Below, one piece after another: positions 4,217 to 34,952 of a DNA stretch of 34,952 nt; within the stretch, counting starts at the first letter, position 1, and each line of letters opens with the position of its first letter. The stretch is from a virus: positions 1 to 34,952 of the IMG/VR virus record IMGVR_UViG_3300009285_000389; one strand, 5' to 3'. The notes beneath the pieces are model-generated. The model made no database searches. It saw only the letters and a list, made by a program, of their open reading frames with translations, and had not been told where the DNA came from. The translations under genes and the position numbers were made by a program.

Positions 4217-5778
4217 TAGCTATATCGCTCCTCTATGTAGTCGTTGACCATATACCCGTCTGTGCCCTCGTAGCCTTTCGGTATTTCGACCTCAGTGTAA
4301 TAGATCATACCCATCGCAAGGTCTGGCATGGAGAGCATGTTGATACTGTCATACCGGGATGTCGTACTGAAGTCCTGTATCTCGTAGGTGTTGGGGCTCG
4401 CAGACGCCGCCGCATATTTAAGCGTTGCGCCATACGCTCGATAGTAGCCCGTGTCTCCCGTGTGAATGGCATAGAGTCGCTGCACGTCCCGCGAGTTGCT
4501 GCCAGCCGACACACTCATGCCCATGCGCTCGATAGGGTAGGACTCCCCGCCGATGATCTGCCGGCCCGCCCTGTGAATGGGGAACCGATACACGGCCCGC
4601 GCATCACCCACTGGCATACTACCAGACGATGAACCAGTGGAGCCGTAGCCCTTGCGGTCTGTGTCGCCGGCCAGGTACTCGATATTGCTGGCTGCCGTGG
4701 ACAATTGCAGCGACGTCGATCCAGAATTGCCATACACATAACTGCCAGCCGTGAACGGGCCCAGCGTGGTGTATCCGGTATTGGACCCGCCGGGCGCTTC
4801 GGCAAGGTAGAGCAGGTAGGCCACATCGTAGCCATAAGACAGGTTATGGGTAGAGCACGCCGTTACCGTCACCCTGACTTCATCATTAGGATTGTGCGCT
4901 ATCCCCGTGGTGTCCAGCGAGCACGCGGTCATGGTCATCTTCTCAGGCGCCACACTGCCAGATCCGGCCATCGCTATTGTAGTCAACGCCGTGCCGTTGA
5001 ATGTTGGCTTAAAGTAGATCGTGCTCTGATAGCCATGCTCACGTGAATACCCCACAAGCAGGTATAGCCGCCCGCCGCGTGTGGACTTGACATAGCCGTC
5101 GAATAGCGTCTGATTGGCGTCAACGCCCTCAGCCACGTATACATCCCGTGACCGCGCTCGAAAGCCAGCCGTGCCGCGCTTCGCCAGACCATTCAGGTTG
5201 ATGATATTGTCCCGTAGCGCGTGAAGGTCAGTACACGCCGAGGTGGTGTCACCATCCCTGAACCTGCTGGCAGAGAACGGCGTATACCCCGAGCTGGTCG
5301 TTTTGATTTGGCCCAAGTAATAGATCGTCGTTTCGTTCGTTGCGCCGTTCGTGGCGTCGTTGGCTTTGAACTGGACGGCCCGATTTACCCCGTCGCTGTC
5401 TGCCAGAAACGACAAATCCTTGACGCCGCGGTATACCGTGCTACCCACGCTATCAGTGAAGGTACAGGCGTTCGTGCCGGCCACAATCATGCACGTGGAC
5501 ACCTGGCTCGCGCCCGTGCCCGCACCGCCGGCCACGGTGATGCTGTACTCCAATCCCAGGTGTTCCGATGCGCTGGTTATGTACTTGTGAATCATGTTGT
5601 ACTGCGCTTCGCGCTGGTTGGCCCCGCTCAACTCGTCGCCAAACGTCACCGTTTCAAATGGGATGTTCGGCGCTTTGCAGCGTCCTTCGATGTCCACAAT
5701 GTCATCGGCTACGATATTCAGTTGCGTCGCGCCCAGGAGCGTCGATGCCGACATGGGCGGTGGCGTGGTGTAGTTCAT
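4216..5778 (-). CDS. Tail-tip or baseplate structural protein
   Basis: A 520-residue protein that starts at the base after the preceding tail gene's stop and shares its last base with the fibre start. It is rich in Thr, Ser, Gly, Ala and Tyr and looks largely beta-structured. It opens with MNYTTPPPMSASTLLGATQ and ends in an acidic segment, EIPKGYEGTDGY. I do not recognise a specific family. Position after the hub-like protein and before the fibre suggests an upper-fibre, baseplate-wedge or fibre-attachment role. An independent appendage protein is also possible. No enzyme motif is visible. Confidence 0.55.
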   Translation of the reverse strand: MNYTTPPPMSASTLLGATQLNIVADDIVDIEGRCKAPNIPFETVTFGDELSGANQREAQYNMIHKYITSASEHLGLEYSITVAGGAGTGASQVSTCMIVAGTNACTFTDSVGSTVYRGVKDLSFLADSDGVNRAVQFKANDATNGATNETTIYYLGQIKTTSSGYTPFSASRFRDGDTTSACTDLHALRDNIINLNGLAKRGTAGFRARSRDVYVAEGVDANQTLFDGYVKSTRGGRLYLLVGYSREHGYQSTIYFKPTFNGTALTTIAMAGSGSVAPEKMTMTACSLDTTGIAHNPNDEVRVTVTACSTHNLSYGYDVAYLLYLAEAPGGSNTGYTTLGPFTAGSYVYGNSGSTSLQLSTAASNIEYLAGDTDRKGYGSTGSSSGSMPVGDARAVYRFPIHRAGRQIIGGESYPIERMGMSVSAGSNSRDVQRLYAIHTGDTGYYRAYGATLKYAAASASPNTYEIQDFSTTSRYDSINMLSMPDLAMGMIYYTEVEIPKGYEGTDGYMVNDYIEERYS

Positions 5779-11484: not shown

Positions 11485-11831
11485 GCCCGCTCCAAGTCAA
11501 CGACTATCAGTGCCTTGTGAGACTTCGCATCATCCGAGAATCGCACGTTATAGCGGGTAGAGTCTATCAGCACGTCACACGATGCGCTGATACACGCGCT
11601 ATGCGGCAAGGCCAGCTTCCAGCCCGAGAACTCCGTCGCCTTGCCCGGCTCCATGCGCTCCTCAGTAGTCATGGGCCACAACGCGCCGGTGTAGGTCGTA
11701 TAGGTACATCCACTTTGCACGACATTGCCGTAACTGGTTGATGTGGTGTAGTACAATACCGTGATCGTCTTGTCCATGCCCTTGTTGAACCACGACTGCA
11801 TATAGTCCAGATAGCCTCTATTGACAATCAT
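11481..11831 (-). CDS. Head-closure (stopper) like neck protein
   Basis: A 116-residue protein from the ATG at 11831, which forms an ATGA overlap with the glycosyltransferase gene before it. Alternative starts up to 11849 would overlap that gene further and are less likely. It has the beta-rich, small-domain make-up of head-closure proteins (DKTITVLYYTTSTS, TEERMEPGKATEFS, DVLIDSTRYNVRFS). Its location just upstream of gp10-like, terminator and tube genes fits the stopper slot. It is separated from the other neck gene, the connector at 17146-17487, by the glycosylation cassette. No specific family motif is certain. Confidence 0.55.
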   Translation of the reverse strand: MIVNRGYLDYMQSWFNKGMDKTITVLYYTTSTSYGNVVQSGCTYTTYTGALWPMTTEERMEPGKATEFSGWKLALPHSACISASCDVLIDSTRYNVRFSDDAKSHKALIVVDLERA

Positions 11832-12826
11832 GTCAGCCCCTCGATCCACTTGCCAGCGTTCGCCTCGATGCTGAATTGCAGCACCGCGTCAACCCGCCGG
11901 CCTGTCGCCACCGTGCGGTATGTGTCGATATTGTCAATCATCTCGCACAACGCCGGCAGCCAATCGTCTGTCACCTGCAATGACCAATCGGTCAGGTCGG
12001 CGTATGGGTCGGACTTGCTCACAATGCACGGCACGCCGGCGCACGCGTATTCCACAACCTTTAGCCATGACCGCCGCCTGTCATACTCTGACCACAACGG
12101 CGCGAGGCCAATGTCGAATTGCGCCAGCAGCCGCGGCCACTCATCCTGCGGAACGCCTGGAACCCAAAACTTTTGGCGTGGCGGTATTTCGTGCAGCATG
12201 TCAAAGTTTGCCCGGTCATTGCCGCATACTGCCACCCTCACGAACGAATAGCACCGGCACGCTTCTACCAGAGCCGCCACCGCGCCACTGTACCGCCACG
12301 AATCGGCGTGCGACATTGAACCGCCCCAGCCGATAACGACTCCCTCGTGTGGTCGGCGCGCCACGTTCCGGTACCACTCAGCTCGCACGTAGTTAGGCAG
12401 CCATACCTTTTCCGGCGCGGCCCAATCATCCAGCAGTAGCTTTGACGGGGAGGTCAACCCGCTCGAAATGGACAGGCCATAGCGCAATTGCTCAATCGGC
12501 GACGGGTTGAACCCGTTGACGTTTTCAATCCAAAACCGCCGCGCCACGTTGGTCTCTGGTAGCATCTGATACGCATCGTCAAGGTCGATATAGACCGGCA
12601 CGCCCAGGCCGCGCCACTTCTCCAGCGTTTTCAGGTTGTCACCAAACACGTTGCGCTGCAATACTACCGCGTCGGCCCCTTGCAGATTGGCCGACTGCCA
12701 GCCCAGCAGGTCCAGGACCTCCACGTCAACGCCAATGCGCCGCAGGCCATACGCGGGGTTGACGATGCGCCACTGGCTACAATTCCATTCACTGTCTGTG
12801 TCGGCGTGTACGAGTACTATCCGCAT
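11828..12826 (-). CDS. Glycosyltransferase, GT-B fold (GT4-like)
   Basis: A 332-residue protein starting after a GGGGGAGAT Shine-Dalgarno. The start MRIVLVHADTDSEW resembles the first strand of GT-B enzymes. Later PVYIDLDDAYQ, FWIENVNGF, VVIGWGGSMSHADSW and a C-terminal KVVEYACAGVPCIVS segment match the nucleotide-sugar-binding half of GT4-type enzymes. The E of the 'E..A.G.P.i' motif lies near residue 261. It should transfer a sugar from an activated donor, but donor and acceptor cannot be read. It is the last gene of the glycosylation cassette and is coupled to the neck gene after it by ATGA. There is no membrane segment, so it likely acts in the cytoplasm. Confidence 0.82.
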   Translation of the reverse strand: MRIVLVHADTDSEWNCSQWRIVNPAYGLRRIGVDVEVLDLLGWQSANLQGADAVVLQRNVFGDNLKTLEKWRGLGVPVYIDLDDAYQMLPETNVARRFWIENVNGFNPSPIEQLRYGLSISSGLTSPSKLLLDDWAAPEKVWLPNYVRAEWYRNVARRPHEGVVIGWGGSMSHADSWRYSGAVAALVEACRCYSFVRVAVCGNDRANFDMLHEIPPRQKFWVPGVPQDEWPRLLAQFDIGLAPLWSEYDRRRSWLKVVEYACAGVPCIVSKSDPYADLTDWSLQVTDDWLPALCEMIDNIDTYRTVATGRRVDAVLQFSIEANAGKWIEGLT

Positions 12827-12885: not shown

Positions 12886-13086
12886 CTAGACATCAACCGC
12901 CTGACCTCTCACGTGAACCATCTCCCAAGTGTGCGACGTGCTATGTCTCCACACGGGGGCAACTAACCATTCTTTTGCACCCTTCCAACATCCCCAGAAA
13001 TCCTCATGGCAATACGGAACCGCATCGTCTACGGAAATCCAGTCATTGATTCTTTTTGCTTCTGAATAGCTAATCTCTATTGCCAT
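12886..13086 (-). CDS. Small protein of unknown function in the glycosylation cassette
   Basis: A 66-residue protein beginning at 13086 after a GGGGGGAATAA Shine-Dalgarno, with a 17-base overlap with the glycosyltransferase before it. It is rich in Trp, His and acidic residues (NDWISVDDAVPYCHEDFWG, WLVAPVWRHSTSHTWEMVH). I do not recognise a family. The His/Cys/Trp-rich composition might suggest metal binding, but there is no standard motif. A spacer of about 60 bases separates it from the next gene, whose own Shine-Dalgarno lies in that spacer. It is kept because start, site and length fit coding. Confidence 0.5.
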   Translation of the reverse strand: MAIEISYSEAKRINDWISVDDAVPYCHEDFWGCWKGAKEWLVAPVWRHSTSHTWEMVHVRGQAVDV

Positions 13087-13981
13087 TTATTCCCCCCAAT
13101 AGCCGCATCCAGTCGTTGATATACCGCTCCGTGCTGAAGTGCGCCCGCGCCGCCTCTGCGCCGGCCAACCCCACGCGCCGCACCGTTGCCGGGTCTTTCA
13201 GCAGGCCCAATAGCGTCGATTCCAGTTCCGGCTCCTCTACGATGTAGCCCGTCTTGCCATGCTCGATATAGTTCTCGGTGTCGTGCCCTGGTAGGGACAC
13301 AACGCACAGTCCCATGAGCATCGCCTCAGTGCGCGCTCCCGGCATAGGTGAGCGCCTTGTCGGGTTGACATAGATGGTGCCGCGCCCCAACACATGCCGG
13401 TATTCATCGAACGTCGCCGGCTTCTCTGCCAAGCCGATCCACGTGACAGGCACGGAGAACATGAGGCGCTCCAATATGTCGCAGCCGTTGTATTCGTGGT
13501 GAAACCCGCGCCAGCCGCCGACACACGTGACTATCTCGGGCTCACGATCTTTCGTGTTGACGGGCCATTCCCGCGCATCGTAGCCGTGGATGATAGGCGT
13601 TCCCCAGCCCCATTCACTAGCCGCCTGCGCGCTGTTCGTCACCATGTGGCAACCGTCTAGCCAGTCTCGCATCATGTACACGTCAATGTAATTCTCTGGC
13701 GCGCCGTGGTTGATAACGATGATTGGCTCCTTGACAACGGAGCGCAATTCCCGAAACTGCGGGGCCATGCTCTGATAGCGCCAGCACACTTCGTCAACAT
13801 GCAATATCACCGCGTCGTATTGCCCCGGCTCGTAGCGATCCACGATGCGGTTGTGAGGGTATGGCCTGCTGTGTTCGTTCCAACGCGGCCAGCCATCATG
13901 CCAGATGTAGTCACGCTCTACCGGCAACACGTCCAGCCGGCGCGCGTGGGCCTCGTGCCAGAAGTGGTCAAGGAGTTTCAT
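13070..13981 (-). CDS. Glycosyltransferase, GT-B fold (GT4-like)
   Basis: A 303-residue protein from the ATG at 13981, in ATGA overlap with the GT2 gene and preceded by GGGGGGAAC. An N-terminal sugar-acceptor half (DHFWHEAHARRLDVLPVERD) contains PGQYDAVILHVDE and IIVINHGAPENYIDVY. The C-terminal half carries TCVGGWRGF and RSPMPGARTEAMLMGLCVVS, the 'P.p.a..EA...G..vv' donor-binding motif of GT4-type enzymes. GHDTENYIEHGKTGYIV follows, a typical C-terminal part. The donor and acceptor are unknown. It lies in the middle of the cassette. A longer N-terminal extension is open upstream but would run far into the previous gene. Confidence 0.85.
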   Translation of the reverse strand: MKLLDHFWHEAHARRLDVLPVERDYIWHDGWPRWNEHSRPYPHNRIVDRYEPGQYDAVILHVDEVCWRYQSMAPQFRELRSVVKEPIIVINHGAPENYIDVYMMRDWLDGCHMVTNSAQAASEWGWGTPIIHGYDAREWPVNTKDREPEIVTCVGGWRGFHHEYNGCDILERLMFSVPVTWIGLAEKPATFDEYRHVLGRGTIYVNPTRRSPMPGARTEAMLMGLCVVSLPGHDTENYIEHGKTGYIVEEPELESTLLGLLKDPATVRRVGLAGAEAARAHFSTERYINDWMRLLGGINGNRD

Positions 13982-14733
13982 CGTTCCCCCCTCAGCACTT
14001 CCGGGTGCTTGCTTGCCATGCGCCGCCATGCCCGGTCTGCGCGCTCCTGTTTCTCTGACGTGCGCGGTACGTCTGGATGGTATATCAACGCATCGGGACA
14101 ATAGGCCATCCCGTACCCCGCCTGAAACCAACGGATGCCCAGCTCGATGTCTTCCCAGCCGTACTCGTTCGGTTGTGCGAAGTCCTCATCGAACCCGCCC
14201 ACATCCATGAACGCGCTGCGCCTGAATGACAGGTTATTCGAAATGAAGTTGCCCCACGACAGGCGGTCGGTGTTCTCTCGCCGCGCCTTGTCACTCAGTA
14301 GCCCGATAGGTATGTGCCGTTGCAGGTTGTGGTATGTCGGGTCACGCTGCCCCAACACCGCAAACTCTTTGCCCGGATGTGTTTTGCCCAGGCTGCCATG
14401 TACCCATTCGTGGACTTCCAGTAGGTGCTTGTGCGGTAGGCTGTCATCGTCCAGCAGTAGCATGATGTCAGACGTGGCGGCCTCGATACCCTTGTTGCGT
14501 GCCACCGACACGCCGTTAGTTCCGGGTTGCACGCCGCTACACACGATGCCGCCATTCGGTATCATGTCTACCACTTCCGCAAACGGCGATTGATAGACGC
14601 CCGTATCATCGCAGATAATGATTTCGTCTGCCGGCCGCGTCTGCTCTGACAGGAGCTGCAATATCGCTCGCATTCGCCACGGGCGCGGGTAGCCGGCGGC
14701 TATAATGACACTAATCGTAACGTTGTTCTCCAT
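13978..14733 (-). CDS. Glycosyltransferase family 2 (GT-A fold)
   Basis: A 251-residue protein from the ATG at 14733 behind a GGAGGGGGGA Shine-Dalgarno. An N-terminal TISVIIAAG strand with P-R-P and an EIIICDDTG segment make the GT-A nucleotide-binding half. The metal-binding triad lies in LLLDDDS. The acceptor-side motif is GFDEDFAQPNEYGWEDIELG with the ED pair, as in GT2/GT27-like enzymes. It should add a sugar from a nucleotide sugar using a divalent metal. The acceptor is unknown. It overlaps the FkbM-type gene by 23 bases upstream and the next glycosyltransferase by ATGA downstream, so all are made together. Confidence 0.9.
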   Translation of the reverse strand: MENNVTISVIIAAGYPRPWRMRAILQLLSEQTRPADEIIICDDTGVYQSPFAEVVDMIPNGGIVCSGVQPGTNGVSVARNKGIEAATSDIMLLLDDDSLPHKHLLEVHEWVHGSLGKTHPGKEFAVLGQRDPTYHNLQRHIPIGLLSDKARRENTDRLSWGNFISNNLSFRRSAFMDVGGFDEDFAQPNEYGWEDIELGIRWFQAGYGMAYCPDALIYHPDVPRTSEKQERADRAWRRMASKHPEVLRGER

Positions 14734-25174: not shown

Positions 25175-25981
25175 TTATCCTTGTGATTCAGGAGCGGACA
25201 GGTCGGACTTGCACCGCCAGTCTTCCGGTTGGTCACCGGACGCGTTATCTATTTCGCCTTGCCCGCTTATACCACGATACATCGAAGCCCCTCGCCGCTC
25301 AATCTCGCTAAATGGCAATATGGGCACGGTCAATCGTTGCCGATACTCTGGGGCAAGGAAATAGATATAGCGCAGTTGAAAGCCGCGCAGTGGCCTAGCC
25401 CCGGCTGCAATAAACGGCCGCATACTTGCCCCACCAGTCTCGGTTATCGCCTTACCTTTCGTGACAGTGACTCGACTAAGCAGTCGCGCTCTCTCTGGCC
25501 GACGCGTATCCGTGGCAACTAGTCGAGTTGTTGTTTCTCCATTCGGCATAACCCATATCTGGTCATTCTGCTTGATACCCGTCAGCACGAACCCACTGGC
25601 CCGATAGATCGTGCCGTCCCCGCACTGCGTGGCGTCAGCGAAGCTAATAACCCACCTCAGATGTGGCGCATGTTTCCGCAACATCTTCATAGCCATTGCG
25701 ATGGCCCTGCTCTCACTGTTGCGCGGCAAGGTATCTGTAAATGCAAGCCGGTTAAGTTCAATAAACTCATTCCAGCCCGTACCTTCCACAAGTCCCATTA
25801 TCTTACGCTTGTCTAGACTTGGCCCAAACTGCATAGCCCCTTCCAGCTTGCCAAGATAGAACACGCCGATATGAATCTGGCTATTATTCACAACCTTACC
25901 AGAATAGTGAACACGTCGCACAAGGGCATTGGCCTCCCGCGCACTTATAGGCCGCAGCAGAATATCCTTAGCTTTGCCCAT
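25175..25981 (-). CDS. Mom-family DNA hypermodification protein
   Basis: A 268-residue protein. Known Mom-family landmarks are present in order: RRVHYSGKV at about 22-30, IGVFYLGKLEGAMQFGPS, EFIELNRLAFTD, SESRAIAMAMKMLRKH, and SFADATQCGDGTIYRASG at 113-130. This GNAT-like family (phage Mu Mom and relatives) makes carbamoylmethyl-type changes on adenine in DNA, which protects it from restriction enzymes. The last 100 residues are less conserved (ARPLRGFQLRYIYFLAPEY). It overlaps the ParB-like gene by 14 bases and is followed by TerS. The reaction in this phage is inferred from the family. Confidence 0.85.
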   Translation of the reverse strand: MGKAKDILLRPISAREANALVRRVHYSGKVVNNSQIHIGVFYLGKLEGAMQFGPSLDKRKIMGLVEGTGWNEFIELNRLAFTDTLPRNSESRAIAMAMKMLRKHAPHLRWVISFADATQCGDGTIYRASGFVLTGIKQNDQIWVMPNGETTTRLVATDTRRPERARLLSRVTVTKGKAITETGGASMRPFIAAGARPLRGFQLRYIYFLAPEYRQRLTVPILPFSEIERRGASMYRGISGQGEIDNASGDQPEDWRCKSDLSAPESQG

Positions 25982-27596: not shown

Positions 27597-27950
27597 CTAC
27601 ACATCAAAGATGCGCGCCTTCATGCGATCAATGCCCTTGTCAATGTATGACCGCACAGTCCGATCCGACTTGCCAATGATGCGCCCTATCTCCGCGTGGC
27701 CGTACTTTGACGGGCCATAGGCCAGTCGTATAACCGCTTCCTCTTCCACTGGCAATCGCTCCAGGGCCAGCACTATCTCAGAACGTGAGACCATCTCATC
27801 GGTCATGCAGCGCCCTGTGCTGTCTGGCTCCCGTGTGGTCAGCTTCATCGGCAATGGCGCGTCGTCTGTATTGAGCACTTGACATAGCCAGAATACCAAC
27901 AGAGAGCGCTTATCTGCTTCCGCAAGTGCGACAGATCCGATTACTGGCAT
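27597..27950 (-). CDS. Sigma-region-4-like transcription regulator (ArpU/RinA-like position)
   Basis: A 117-residue protein starting after GGAGGGTAGAGT. Residues 58-113 read EIVLALERLPVEEEAVIRLA, then YGHAEIGRIIGKSDRTVRSY and a basic end. This is the helix-turn-helix pattern of sigma-70 region 4: 'l..L...~~.v..l.......eIa..lg.s..tVr...'. No sigma region 2 is present, so it is unlikely to act alone as a sigma factor. Phages often place ArpU/RinA-type late activators of this build just before the packaging genes, which matches. It may control the late operon and the candidate RNA downstream. Confidence 0.75.
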   Translation of the reverse strand: MPVIGSVALAEADKRSLLVFWLCQVLNTDDAPLPMKLTTREPDSTGRCMTDEMVSRSEIVLALERLPVEEEAVIRLAYGPSKYGHAEIGRIIGKSDRTVRSYIDKGIDRMKARIFDV

Positions 27951-29718: not shown

Positions 29719-30345
29719 TTAGTGGCCCTCGTTCATCGCCTCGATAATCGTCTCTGCATCGGCGGTCAGCACCCACCCGGCTTTCGGGTTGCGCCTATCA
29801 CGCCACTCGGCCCACTCCGCACCCATGAGCGCATTGCGGTACTCGGTATAGCGCGGCTCCCTCGCCTGCCAGTACCGCGCCGATGTGTCGGTCTCACATG
29901 ATCTGACGAACGCCGCGAATCGATCTTCCTCTTCTTTGCGCCGGTCGGCCTCGCGCGCATCCTTGCCGATATATGGACTCAGCAATACCGGCTGGTGCGG
30001 CTCTGGCAACGCCGGCATCGCCATTGGCTCGGGCGCCGGCTCACCTGGCATCTTCCGCACATCCTCGCTGGCCCACACCATACGGTCAATGCCCGCGGCG
30101 CGCCACAAGAACCCCACGACCGCAAACGTCGCCACGAAAATAGCAAACGGCATCCAGAAGTAGCCGGTCAGCATGTCGAATACCATGCCAAACACCGCCC
30201 CGAGCCACACGCCCATGTACAACCCTGTCAGCGCCGGCACCACGAAATCAGACCTGACCGTCTGCGCCCGCGTCGGGATGCGCCGGCGTGACACGATTTC
30301 ACCGGCTGCCGGCGCGGTGGCGTGGTAGCTTCGCCGGCGCGTCAT
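29719..30345 (-). CDS. Membrane protein with two helices and a charged cytoplasmic-type tail
   Basis: A 208-residue protein with a basic N-terminus (RRRIPTRAQTVR) and two hydrophobic segments (VPALTGLYMGVWLGAVFGMV; FWMPFAIFVATFAVVGFLW) at about 36-82. The rest is charged (DAREADRRKEEEDRF, then a long Arg/Glu/Trp stretch). No catalytic motif is seen. It overlaps the lipoprotein-type gene by ATGA. The role is unknown; superinfection or membrane functions are guesses only. Confidence 0.6.
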   Translation of the reverse strand: MTRRRSYHATAPAAGEIVSRRRIPTRAQTVRSDFVVPALTGLYMGVWLGAVFGMVFDMLTGYFWMPFAIFVATFAVVGFLWRAAGIDRMVWASEDVRKMPGEPAPEPMAMPALPEPHQPVLLSPYIGKDAREADRRKEEEDRFAAFVRSCETDTSARYWQAREPRYTEYRNALMGAEWAEWRDRRNPKAGWVLTADAETIIEAMNEGH

Positions 30346-30569
30346 TTCCGGCGCATCCGCGAGAACACAACCAACGCCGCCATTGCGCCCAACGCCGAAA
30401 ACACGAACACGGTCAGCGCCAGTTGCAGATCACTGGCCGCCGCCATGTCAGCATTGAGTGTCAGACTGTCAACGCCACGCGGGTTGTAGTCGCCGCCTTC
30501 GAGAAGGGCGTTGCCTACGCAGCCGGTGAGCGCCAGGGCCACAAGTAGCAGGGGGAGTATGCGTTTCAT
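30342..30569 (-). CDS. Small lipoprotein with a C-terminal membrane helix
   Basis: A 75-residue protein from the ATG at 30569. It starts MKRILPLLLVALALTGC, an ideal lipobox (LTGC), so a lipid anchor is likely. A second hydrophobic segment (LALTVFVFSALGAMAALVVF) and a basic end (SRMRRK) follow. The linker NPRGVDSLTLNADM lies between. It could be a spanin-like or membrane-fusion protein, or a phage-coded surface lipoprotein, but short length and composition give no proof. Overlaps both neighbours by ATGA. Confidence 0.7.
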   Translation of the reverse strand: MKRILPLLLVALALTGCVGNALLEGGDYNPRGVDSLTLNADMAAASDLQLALTVFVFSALGAMAALVVFSRMRRK

Positions 30570-31893: not shown

Positions 31894-32051
31894 TGCACTG
31901 CCGCCATCTGCGCTATTTGCGCGTCCAGCGCTTCCAACTCCGCCCTGAGGCACTCCCAAAACAACGGGCATTCTGCGCACGCATCACACAAATCGGGTTC
32001 GCCATAGGTGCCCAGTGCGCAGGCGTCGTCAATGCGTAGATCGTCTGTCAT
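31890..32051 (-). CDS. Cys-rich mini-protein with WhiB-like cysteine spacing
   Basis: A 53-residue protein from the ATG at 32051, ATGA-coupled on both sides. MTDDLRIDDACALGTYG is followed by DLCDACAECPLFWECLRAE. The C-x2-C-P-x4-C spacing resembles the end of the iron-sulfur cluster motif of WhiB-type regulators. A GVWGG-type turn and the usual length are missing. It could bind a metal or cluster, or the match may be chance. The C-terminal helix is Ala/Gln-rich. Confidence 0.5.
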   Translation of the reverse strand: MTDDLRIDDACALGTYGEPDLCDACAECPLFWECLRAELEALDAQIAQMAAVQ

Positions 32052-32248
32052 AGCATCTCTCCCCATCGCTCTTCTGGTAGTACACACGCCATGCAGAGCG
32101 CCAGCACGTCTTTTGTGTAGGTCGCCTCGATTTCGCCGGCGTCGTTGCGCTGCCACTGGCCGCGTACGACTGGGACTTTGGTGTCAGCGGGCCAGGTCAC
32201 CTCATATATCGTGTTGTCAACGTATTTGAGCCGCTTGTTCACTGGCAT
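32048..32248 (-). CDS. Small protein of unknown function after the octamer region
   Basis: A 66-residue protein from the ATG at 32248, chosen because a GAGG site lies nine bases upstream; 32257 is an alternative with no room for a site. It reads MPVNKRLKYVDNTIYEVTW, then VPVVRGQWQRND and a C-terminal helix with CMACVLPEERW. No family is recognised. It is the first gene after the octamer-rich gap and likely the first of its operon. Confidence 0.55.
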   Translation of the reverse strand: MPVNKRLKYVDNTIYEVTWPADTKVPVVRGQWQRNDAGEIEATYTKDVLALCMACVLPEERWGEML

Positions 32249-32350
32249 CGCGTTCATCCTCGCAGTCTATGATTCTCTACGGTTTGCCATGTTTCAGGCG
32301 TTAAATCAGGGTTACCGGGTCATGATAATCTATGATACTTAATGTATGTT

Positions 32351-32485
32351 CTGATAGTCCTGACAGTTCTGATAGTTTTCTGATAAATCACGCGAGACTT
32401 GAGTACAGCTCAAATAACCTAGAAAAGTGTCAGAACTATCAGAGACTATCAGGAGTTTCCTTCATTTCGCCCTCACAACTGTCAG
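32351..32485. repeat. Inverted clusters of a CTGAYAGT octamer around a small palindrome
   Basis: On the plus strand CTGATAGT lies at 32351-32358 and 32369-32376, CTGACAGT at 32360-32367, and a weaker CTGATAAA at 32380-32387. The first three have a nine-base period. Facing copies are ACTATCAG at 32435-32442 and 32445-32452, and ACTGTCAG at 32478-32485. TTGAG-N5-CTCAA at 32399-32413 sits nearly at the centre. The arms at about 32351-32376 and 32427-32452 are near-complementary over some 25 bases. This is the only large gene-free stretch by the primase. It could be an origin, an operator or a long hairpin. No gene is visible in 32249-32487. Confidence 0.75.
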
Positions 32486-32487
32486 AA

Positions 32488-34656
32488 CTACTCACTATTA
32501 TCGTCAAGTAAACCGATTCCATGATAGGTTACATACCCGGTCACGCGTTTTTCCTTGTTAAATCCACGTTCACGCAAAGTATTGCCAAAGCGCGTCCCCG
32601 AGATAGCACTTTCACCATTGTTTTTGCACCATTCGGCGTAAGCCTTGTACAGGTGGCTGGCCCTGGCTGCATAGTTTCCGTTGGGGTCTACAATGCAGCA
32701 CTCTGTCAAGAACGCCGTGATGGTGTCCATCTCTGCCCGATACGCCTGGGTAGCGTCTTGCACCGCCGCCGGCATCCCGAGCCCGTCTCTCTGCCACTCC
32801 ATGCAGCCCCGCACCGCCCACGCCAGAATGCCGGGCAATTCGTCTTGTAGCTTTGTGCATAGCGCTTCATCCTGTTCCGCCTTGGGTATCGTCACCTCGA
32901 AAGGTATCAAGCGCATACGTCGCCAGATGCCCTCGTCTGTGCCTTTGATGATTGGCTTATGATTGCCATATACCCATAGCTTGTGAGTTGGTTTGAACTC
33001 GAAAAACTCCTGGTGCAGGTAGCGAGCCACCATTGTGTCGCCGCCGGTCAGATCCTTGACCAGTGACTCAGCCAGTCGCCGGCCCTCCTCAATTTCTGCT
33101 GCGACCACGAACCGGGAGCCGGGCAACCTGGCTATGTCGTTCGGTATAGTTGCGTTGTACTTCGCCATGAGCATCTCGGTCGGCGCTTTTTGTGCGTAGT
33201 CGCCCAGCATACTGGCGATGGTGTTGACGAAGGTGCTCTTGCCGTTGGCCCCGACTCCGTACATGAAAAACAGGCATTGCTCTGTAATCAACCCGGTCAG
33301 CGAGTACCCTATGGCGCGTTGCAGGAAGTCGATTAACCCCTGATTGCCGCCCATGATGCGCCACAAGAACGCTTCCCATAGTGGGCAATCCATGTCAGGG
33401 TTGTACGTAGTCGGGCACAACTTGGTTATCAAGTCCTCTTGCGAGTGTGGCCTTATCGCTCCTGTGCGGAGGTCGATAGTCCCATTCAGACAATTCAGCA
33501 AACCTAGATCGGCGTCAAGGTCATTGTGCAGCACATAGATTTCTGCCTTGGCAGTCTCTACCATATTCACAAGCCGCGAGCGTGACTCAGATTTGAGCGC
33601 CCACTTTGCCAGCGCCTTGCGCCGATCATCGTCGCCGGCCTGTGCAGCTTCGGCGTAAACCGATGCGACCGTATCTCTGGCAAGGCGCTGAATCTCCTCA
33701 TTGCGATCATGCTCCCAGTGGGTACCGCGCCACAGAAGCCATGTGCCCCAGGCATGACAGTATCGGATATTTTCACCATGCCGGCGTACCAATCGCCGCG
33801 CATTGCCCAGGTCGGTCTCGTTGATGGTTTCCGTAGGATTCAATGATTGCGCCGGTTTATAGCGCCCGACTGACCTTGCGATCTTTTCGATGTCCCTGGG
33901 CGCTAATGGTGGTTTGCAGCGCGCCTCGTTCTCGGCTGTCAAAGCGGCCATGATGGTCGCATGGCTGGCCCCGCGGCGTTGCAAGCTACCCGCTAACGAT
34001 GTAAGGATAGTGTCGCGCTGCCCTTCTCCGATGGTGTCAGGCAGTGGCCCCGCGCGCTTATCGCCATTATCCGGTTCTGCCGACTCAGCATCCACGCCGG
34101 CCCACCCTTCCAGCCACCCGCGCAGCTCACCGAAATTTGCCGTTACCCAGTCCGATTCAATATCGATCCACTCGTAGAAATTGCCGGACGGGTGCAGGCT
34201 GGGTGGTACCAGAGTCTGGCAGCGATTGCCGCGCAGCTCGATAGCCGTCTTGTCTCCCATGTCTGGACGTGGGTACACCCGGCGGGTGAAGCTTTCGGGC
34301 ATGTCCGGGCAAACCAGATAAATGTGTAACTTGCCTGACCCCGTCCTGACCTTTGGCGCCCGTTCTGCTTCGGGCCACGCTGCCATGAATGCATCGCGCG
34401 CAGACTCCCAACCGTCACCATCGAAATCGAGACACACGATATTTCGTGACAGGCTGCCAGTCACTAGCCCGATACCGGTGATGGAGCCGTTGCCTTGCGT
34501 GATCATGTCGTGCAGCTCTTGACGATCCAGTCGGCGCGATTCCCATCCTTGCAGGGTTGGCCCCTTGCGCCCGTATGGGATAGGGATGATGGACAGGTCG
34601 CGATCCCATAGTGACATAGCGGCGCGTGCTAGACGATTCGGGTCAGCGTTTTGCAT
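32488..34656 (-). CDS. Primase-polymerase / SF3 helicase fusion (P4-type)
   Basis: A 722-residue protein. Residues about 10-180 are an archaeo-eukaryotic primase (prim-pol) domain with VCLDFDGDG (D77, D79) and GKLHIYL (H111). A linker and D5-N-like region follow. The helicase has Walker A in YGVGANGKSTF at about 466-476, Walker B near VVAAEIEEGRRL, sensor 1 in WVYGNHKPII (N565) and IWRRMRLIPF. The C-terminal part is a small helical domain. It should make primers and unwind DNA at the origin. The start at 34656 overlaps the RNase H gene by 14 bases. The octamer region follows its stop. Confidence 0.92.
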   Translation of the reverse strand: MQNADPNRLARAAMSLWDRDLSIIPIPYGRKGPTLQGWESRRLDRQELHDMITQGNGSITGIGLVTGSLSRNIVCLDFDGDGWESARDAFMAAWPEAERAPKVRTGSGKLHIYLVCPDMPESFTRRVYPRPDMGDKTAIELRGNRCQTLVPPSLHPSGNFYEWIDIESDWVTANFGELRGWLEGWAGVDAESAEPDNGDKRAGPLPDTIGEGQRDTILTSLAGSLQRRGASHATIMAALTAENEARCKPPLAPRDIEKIARSVGRYKPAQSLNPTETINETDLGNARRLVRRHGENIRYCHAWGTWLLWRGTHWEHDRNEEIQRLARDTVASVYAEAAQAGDDDRRKALAKWALKSESRSRLVNMVETAKAEIYVLHNDLDADLGLLNCLNGTIDLRTGAIRPHSQEDLITKLCPTTYNPDMDCPLWEAFLWRIMGGNQGLIDFLQRAIGYSLTGLITEQCLFFMYGVGANGKSTFVNTIASMLGDYAQKAPTEMLMAKYNATIPNDIARLPGSRFVVAAEIEEGRRLAESLVKDLTGGDTMVARYLHQEFFEFKPTHKLWVYGNHKPIIKGTDEGIWRRMRLIPFEVTIPKAEQDEALCTKLQDELPGILAWAVRGCMEWQRDGLGMPAAVQDATQAYRAEMDTITAFLTECCIVDPNGNYAARASHLYKAYAEWCKNNGESAISGTRFGNTLRERGFNKEKRVTGYVTYHGIGLLDDNSE

Positions 34657-34952
34657 TCGTATAAGCCCTTCGTGTCAACGCGTCGGCGCGCTCGTTTTGT
34701 GCTCTCGGAATCCAATACACAACGCCATTGCACTGTTTCAACAGGTCACGTATCAAGTCACGCGCCTTTTGCAAGCGCGGGTTGTTGCACTTCCAGTCTC
34801 CGGCAATCTGCTTTGCTACGAGTTGTGAATCCGTGCGAATCTCACACTGGATGCCATTCTCAGCGGCCCACTTTGCGGCCTCATACACTGCTCGATACTC
34901 TGCAAGGTTGTTGGTCATCTCTGGACCATGCCCCATGCATCCAGACGCCTCG
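34643..34952 (-). CDS. Ribonuclease H (N-terminus beyond the window)
   Basis: The frame is open to the window edge and continues upstream, so the first ATG seen (34936) is not the true start. It reads ASGCMGHGPEMTNNLAEYRA, with the E of the active site, then RTDSQLVAKQ with the D, and NERADALTRR near the end as in RNase HI. The N-terminal first Asp lies outside. It likely removes RNA primers or R-loops during phage DNA replication. It overlaps the primase-helicase gene by 14 bases, so the two are coupled. Confidence 0.85.
   Translation of the reverse strand, partial: EASGCMGHGPEMTNNLAEYRAVYEAAKWAAENGIQCEIRTDSQLVAKQIAGDWKCNNPRLQKARDLIRDLLKQCNGVVYWIPRAQNERADALTRRAYTNAKR

Follow-up and report, generated by a model that had tools for sequence, protein, structure and literature searches.

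A putative replication origin with facing iterons directly downstream of the D5-type primase-helicase gene of an uncultured phage

The replication region of an uncultured phage contains, beside the gene for a primase-helicase, a gene-free gap that is crowded with copies of the octamer CTGAYAGT. This arrangement raises the question of whether the gap is an origin of replication or an operator, both of which had been offered in a preliminary description of the locus. The window analyzed here is the whole 34,952-nt stretch of IMG/VR record IMGVR_UViG_3300009285_000389. The gap is confirmed, although with boundaries at 32258-32487 instead of the 32249-32487 given initially, as it lies between the start codon of the next ORF (ATG, 32257) and the primase stop codon (32488). 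Both this small ORF (32257..32048) and the primase gene (34656..32488) are on the minus strand, so that the cluster lies directly downstream of the primase stop in gene order, in a non-coding region immediately 3' of the presumed initiator gene. The GC content of the gap is 40.9%, compared with about 57% for the record.

Exact CTGAYAGT occurs 11 times in the whole record, where 1.28 occurrences are expected, and six of the 11 copies are located within 32351-32485 (Table 1). Any other 230-bp stretch of the record contains at most one exact copy. The five copies beyond the gap are isolated singles in the remaining 34.7 kb, a mild excess over the 2.2 (sd 1.9) derived from an order-3 Markov model. 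Six copies in 230 bp compared with five singles elsewhere is far from chance. The six strong copies, three per strand, and the additional weak copy reported in the preliminary description are all present at the positions claimed, and the tally over the record shows an octamer that is dense in the gap and sparse elsewhere rather than equally dense throughout. The sites are short tandem repeats, roughly a helical turn from one to the next, that form two facing sets in the order +++ and a weak plus copy, then a weak minus copy and ---, with 9-10-bp steps in both inner sets. The step is 9 bp in the plus arm and 9 and 10 bp in the minus arm, and the outlying minus copy is 33 bp off. The repeat unit is better given by the 9-mer CTGAYAGTT than by the octamer. 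The element TTGAG-N5-CTCAA, also noted initially, is found in the spacer between the facing sets at 32399-32413.

Table 1 Features of the gene-free gap and its neighborhood.
Feature	Position	Strand	Basis
Gene-free gap, 230 bp, putative replication origin	32258..32487	.	ORF list, composition, origin annotations of phiadh, A2, Sfi21 at this place
60-bp stretch with the lowest GC in the record (30%), possible unwinding element	32326..32390	.
Weaker copy ATGATACTT	32332
Iteron copy CTGATAGT	32351..32358	+	exact octamer count
Iteron copy CTGACAGT	32360..32367	+	exact octamer count
Iteron copy CTGATAGT	32369..32376	+	exact octamer count
Spacer between facing clusters, about 38-39% GC, presumed first melting site	32377..32425	.
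Weak iteron-like copy CTGATAAAT, 2 mismatches to CTGAYAGTT	32380..32388	+
Weak iteron copy CTGACACT, 1 mismatch (seventh copy)	32426..32433	-
Iteron copy CTGATAGT	32435..32442	-	exact octamer count
Iteron copy CTGATAGT	32445..32452	-	exact octamer count
Iteron copy CTGACAGT, outlying, adjoins primase stop	32478..32485	-	exact octamer count
Primase-helicase, 722 aa, presumed initiator	32488..34656	-	Pfam, PHROGs, AlphaFold, 7ola match
Predicted C-terminal winged-helix part, about residues 656-715	32512..32691	-	model secondary structure, alignment
RNase H-like protein at record end, fragment or small gene	34643..34936	-	RVT_3 / RNase_H, PHROG 531

One-mismatch relatives of CTGAYAGT number 73 outside the gap, compared with 36-49 from Markov models of order 1-3, perhaps a consequence of codon composition. 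The record's only other repeat of such density is the 8-mer GCCGGCGC, which has four copies (either strand) within 230 bp at 30131-30452, in coding sequence.

At 0.39 GC within a 57% GC record, the AT content of the spacer is no more than moderate, and the 60-bp stretch in which GC is lowest extends over the distal cluster and is not confined to the spacer. GC skew, a check suggested in the preliminary description, exhibits no sign switch at the gap and is uninformative, since nearly all genes are on one strand. The record carries no terminal repeats.

The presumed initiator is an SF3 (D5_N) helicase, fused here to an AEP primase, as seen from its Pfam domains: Prim-Pol (AEP), PriCT_1, D5_N, DUF5906 (SF3 ATPase) and Pox_D5. 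The AlphaFold model has a mean pLDDT of 90.6. Among solved structures, the protein matches ASFV C962R, 7ola (E 1.1e-6) and, weakly, poxvirus D5; the 7ola entry is titled 'DNA primase', and we take it to be SaPI5 Rep. The C-terminus of the model comprises two helices (666-679 and 687-696) and then strands (700-716), with pLDDT values mostly of 84-94. Based on the secondary structure of the full model and on alignment, this region is predicted to have a winged-helix plan, as in the P4 alpha initiator, with residues 687-696 (GTRFGNTLRE) as the predicted recognition helix. The RNase H-like protein encoded at the record end probably belongs to the replication module.

A tblastn search retrieved 1180 phage records with related primases. 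An origin is annotated directly behind the primase gene in phages phiadh (13084-13469) and A2 (32208-32717), and the origin annotation of Sfi21 is found behind the helicase gene (34487-34784, '302 bp non-coding region, phage inhibitory sequence'). These three phages resemble the window in having a non-coding gap (250-400 bp) right behind the gene of a D5-type primase or helicase, with sets of short repeats that occur on both strands and surround a spacer. They differ from the window in their iterons, in their strongly AT-rich spacers and in the lack of nucleotide similarity, and the phiadh and A2 primases are about 33% identical overall to that of the window. The downstream gaps of relatives contain short repeat sets on both strands, with a repeat that differs from phage to phage: GTGTATAGTT in phiadh, ACGGGAGGATGA in A2, TTGTTACTT in phi105, GGTGGATAGTT in B025 and GTCTGACGG in AcaML1, while the Sfi21 iteron is about AGTTACT. 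Nucleotide searches with the gap against phage and plasmid records yielded no similarity; thus, what is conserved is layout and position, not sequence.

A comparable organization is seen in phage satellites. PICI origins lie 3' of the gene for the initiator and always comprise two iteron sets with an AT-rich region between them (PMC6092414), and the C-terminal domain of SaPI Rep and of Cch2 binds iterons directly downstream of its own gene (PMC7581432). The window resembles the SaPI/PICI (SaPI5 Rep, SaPIbov1) and SCCmec Cch2 systems in that a helicase, presumed to be self-loading in the case of the window, has two iteron sets 3' of its gene, and resembles SaPI5 Rep also in the fusion of primase to helicase. 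These systems are satellites or islands with other iterons, whereas the window phage has portal, terminase and tail genes. Between the two functions offered initially, the evidence favors the origin, which is annotated at the same place in homologues and has published satellite analogues (PMC6092414, PMC7581432). The cluster is very probably the replication origin of this phage, with iterons that its own D5-type primase-helicase most likely binds; the origin reading is strongly supported by position, architecture and conservation as judged from sequence comparison. As an origin it is of a known kind, with its own iteron sequence.

The P4 alpha protein provides a further parallel and, at the same time, a different explanation of the locus. 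It binds origin repeats through a winged helix (reviewed in PMC4234260). Like the window protein, P4 alpha is a primase-helicase with a C-terminal winged helix and has 8-bp repeats on both strands immediately downstream of its gene; it differs in its primase, which is of the TOPRIM type and not Prim-Pol (PMC4234260), in its separate ori, and in its type 1 repeat, GGTGAACA, which is not the CTGAYAGTT of the window. The P4 iteron region directly downstream of alpha is crr (4291-4590), and the annotated ori is 4.5 kb away. By this precedent, the gap could be a cis-required accessory site where the helicase binds while synthesis starts elsewhere. No second iteron region of the P4 ori/crr kind is present within the record, which argues against such a role, although the record is perhaps incomplete and may miss such a site. 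The downstream region is itself annotated as the origin in phiadh, A2 and Sfi21. An accessory site is improbable.

The preliminary description also pointed out that the two arms might form a long hairpin. The arms do pair on paper, and a strand of the gap folds better than its shuffles (z = -4.1), as would be expected of a structural hairpin (RNA or cruciform DNA) or of an element in the primase mRNA at its 3' end; the origin of pRN1 is a 100-nt stem-loop downstream of the primase-helicase gene (PMC4234260). Inverted copies of one repeat, however, always pair by construction, and the hairpin is most plausibly a side effect of binding sites that face each other. The arm spacing is unequal, and pairing is not needed to account for the layout. 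The region gave no match in an Rfam search, and no terminator is present within 32000-32700. Copy number and spacing vary among relatives. A functional hairpin is unlikely in the extreme. An origin of the pRN1 type, a large stem-loop devoid of iterons, was rejected as iterons are present and the spacing in relatives is variable.

The homologous loci were surveyed with a score for the best tandem 9-mer pair facing another tandem pair, using a stretch inside the helicase gene as the control. The score exceeded all ten shuffles in 66 of 94 homologous loci, leaving 28 of 94 without the layout by this measure, compared with 4 of 94 in-gene controls; many of the 94 loci are closely related, so these counts are descriptive and not independent. 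The window itself scores 48, compared with a shuffle maximum of 41 and a control of 32. A stricter three-copy test was passed by 52 of 156 non-redundant loci. The repeat in the facing clusters of homologous loci is 9-10 bp long. The facing-repeat layout, previously known from a few phages and phage satellites, is thus found to be widespread and is common among tailed phages with a D5-type helicase. A search with the portal protein returned no near relative of the phage.

The survey also bears on the operator reading, according to which the repeats are sites for a transcription regulator of the genes downstream (32257 onward) or of the primase gene. The intergenic place and the multiple inverted copies would suit a regulator. 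In relatives, however, the cluster keeps its place at the 3' end of the gene for the helicase while the genes beyond it vary, and a different helicase tends to come with a different repeat. Within 32000-32700, a promoter search covering the sigma-70 type found no site above chance on the coding strand, the single promoter-like match being on the plus strand at chance level, and the lack of a terminator there likewise disfavors an operator. Nothing lends positive support to this function, which is unlikely, and we assign it very little probability.

The window's own repeat was then sought in 2.9 million viral contigs of IMG/VR, as two adjacent CTGAYAGT copies with a third within 30 bp. Eight records were retrieved and seven of these contain an origin-like cluster, which sits behind a D5-type or VapE-like helicase gene wherever the gene is in view. 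In five records (L116-L120) the cluster follows D5 helicases that are 31-39% identical to that of the window, and in L005 it follows a VapE-like helicase. The cluster of L007 has the sequence of that in L005 and lies close to the end of a contig, with the gene itself cut off. A scan for the repeat only thus recovered the matching helicase without its being searched for. L006 is probably not such an origin, as its four tandem copies are located at the end of a reading frame and no helicase is seen beside them. Loci L203 and L272, which were found via the helicase, carry the window's repeat or one almost identical to it. In the L116-L120/L203 group and in L272, the window's iteron (CTGACAGTT, CGGATAGTT, GTGATAGTT) again occurs as sets that face each other downstream of the helicase gene; these phages differ from the window in having more copies and an extra outer set. 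The cluster is therefore conserved in relatives, where same-repeat clusters lie behind related helicases. A scan of bacterial genomes for the triple repeat gave 16 matches. By ORF map, most of them lie at the end of a contig or within a long open frame, and of the 14 inspected none has a nearby frame with the helicase P-loop pattern used.

Covariation between the repeat and the protein was analyzed for 69 loci and 390 nine-residue segments, with overall helicase identity removed. The best segment, 683-691, is located at the predicted recognition helix with a partial r of 0.16 (largest value in 200 label permutations, 0.13); it is a lead only, because segments 657-665 and 498-506 score nearly as high and the permutation does not correct for the choice of the best segment. 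On the scale of whole domains, the covariation is weak and does not separate the domains, and only the finer segments indicate the winged helix. For locus pairs with at least 50% helicase identity, the recognition helix is 57% identical when the repeat is the same and 28% when it is different, compared with 69% and 56%, respectively, for the helicase core. The contrast is smaller in pairs above 60% helicase identity (helix 66% vs 59%, wing 56% vs 42%). The helicases of L203 and L118 are 85% identical and share the same repeat, with a helix identity of 0.80, whereas those of L203 and L204 are 89% identical with different repeats and a helix identity of 0.47. Similarly, L066 and L085 have different repeats at 86% helicase identity, with values of 0.53 for the helix and 0.22 for the wing. 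Repeats ending in GTT are present in 25 of 36 loci with a T-x-[FLM]-G helix and in 4 of 33 others (Fisher 2e-6); thinning at 60% helicase identity gives 7/11 vs 1/18 (p 0.001) and thinning at 50% gives p 0.08, all of these p-values being optimistic as the class was noticed before testing. The window helix has the T-x-F-G form (T688/F690/G691). The covariation would lend indirect support to iteron binding by the primase-helicase.

The spacers of relatives exhibit a further trait. For 44 clear facing-set loci, the longest spacer tract of alternating purines and pyrimidines has a mean length of 10.4 nt, compared with 6.4 nt in shuffled spacers and 5.9 nt in flanks. The tract is ATATAT in AT-rich phages and CGCGCG or CACACA in GC-rich ones, and loci with long tracts include L028, L049, L066, L071, L075, L103, L052 and L024. 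About half of the relatives have it, and many of the ATATAT examples come from related Bacillus-type loci; the window spacer has no such tract, its longest alternation being 6 nt only. The alternating tract may be an unwinding aid. Several Gram-positive phage origins (L024, L027, L029) have a box like CCTTGTGGCTGTGAG / CCCTTGGGAGAGTAAG beside the iteron sets.

It is tempting to postulate a winged-helix recognition-helix code that reads the iterons and, together with alternating spacers, makes origins predictable from the helicase sequence; we put this forward tentatively, as possible rather than probable. In such a code, T-x-F-G helices may pair with ...GTT repeats, and a change of helix may accompany a change of repeat even between helicases that are 86-89% identical. 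If true, it would enable origin prediction across many uncultured phages from the helicase sequence.

For the origin of the window phage, the following mechanism is proposed. The origin would consist of 9-bp iterons (CTGAYAGTT) in two head-on sets, each with three strong copies, flanking a spacer of roughly 50 bp. The primase-helicase most likely binds the iterons via its C-terminal winged helix and, by analogy, would assemble as a ring on each arm, probably in the form of two head-to-head hexamers. The facing rings would then melt the spacer or the adjacent AT-rich stretch, bidirectional unwinding would start, and the AEP domain would prime synthesis. Counting against an origin here are the modest AT content of the spacer and its missing alternating tract, the lack of terminal repeats in the record, and the 28 homologous loci in which the layout was not detected. 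The putative origin activity of the gap provides this uncultured phage with a defined candidate origin and a candidate initiator-site pair. That the layout is common among tailed phages with this helicase is relevant to the way in which satellites and phages trade replication modules or compete for them, and to the kind of phage resistance, based on the origin, that is known from Sfi21.

Other genes in the record encode a Mom-like DNA modification protein near the terminase gene (25175-25981, minus strand; Pfam Mom E 1.5e-52, PHROG 1384) and a 117-residue protein containing sigma-70 region 4 only (27597-27950, minus strand), which is probably a late-gene regulator. Two glycosyltransferase-like proteins (11828-12826 and 13070-14131, minus strand) are encoded within the structural gene region.
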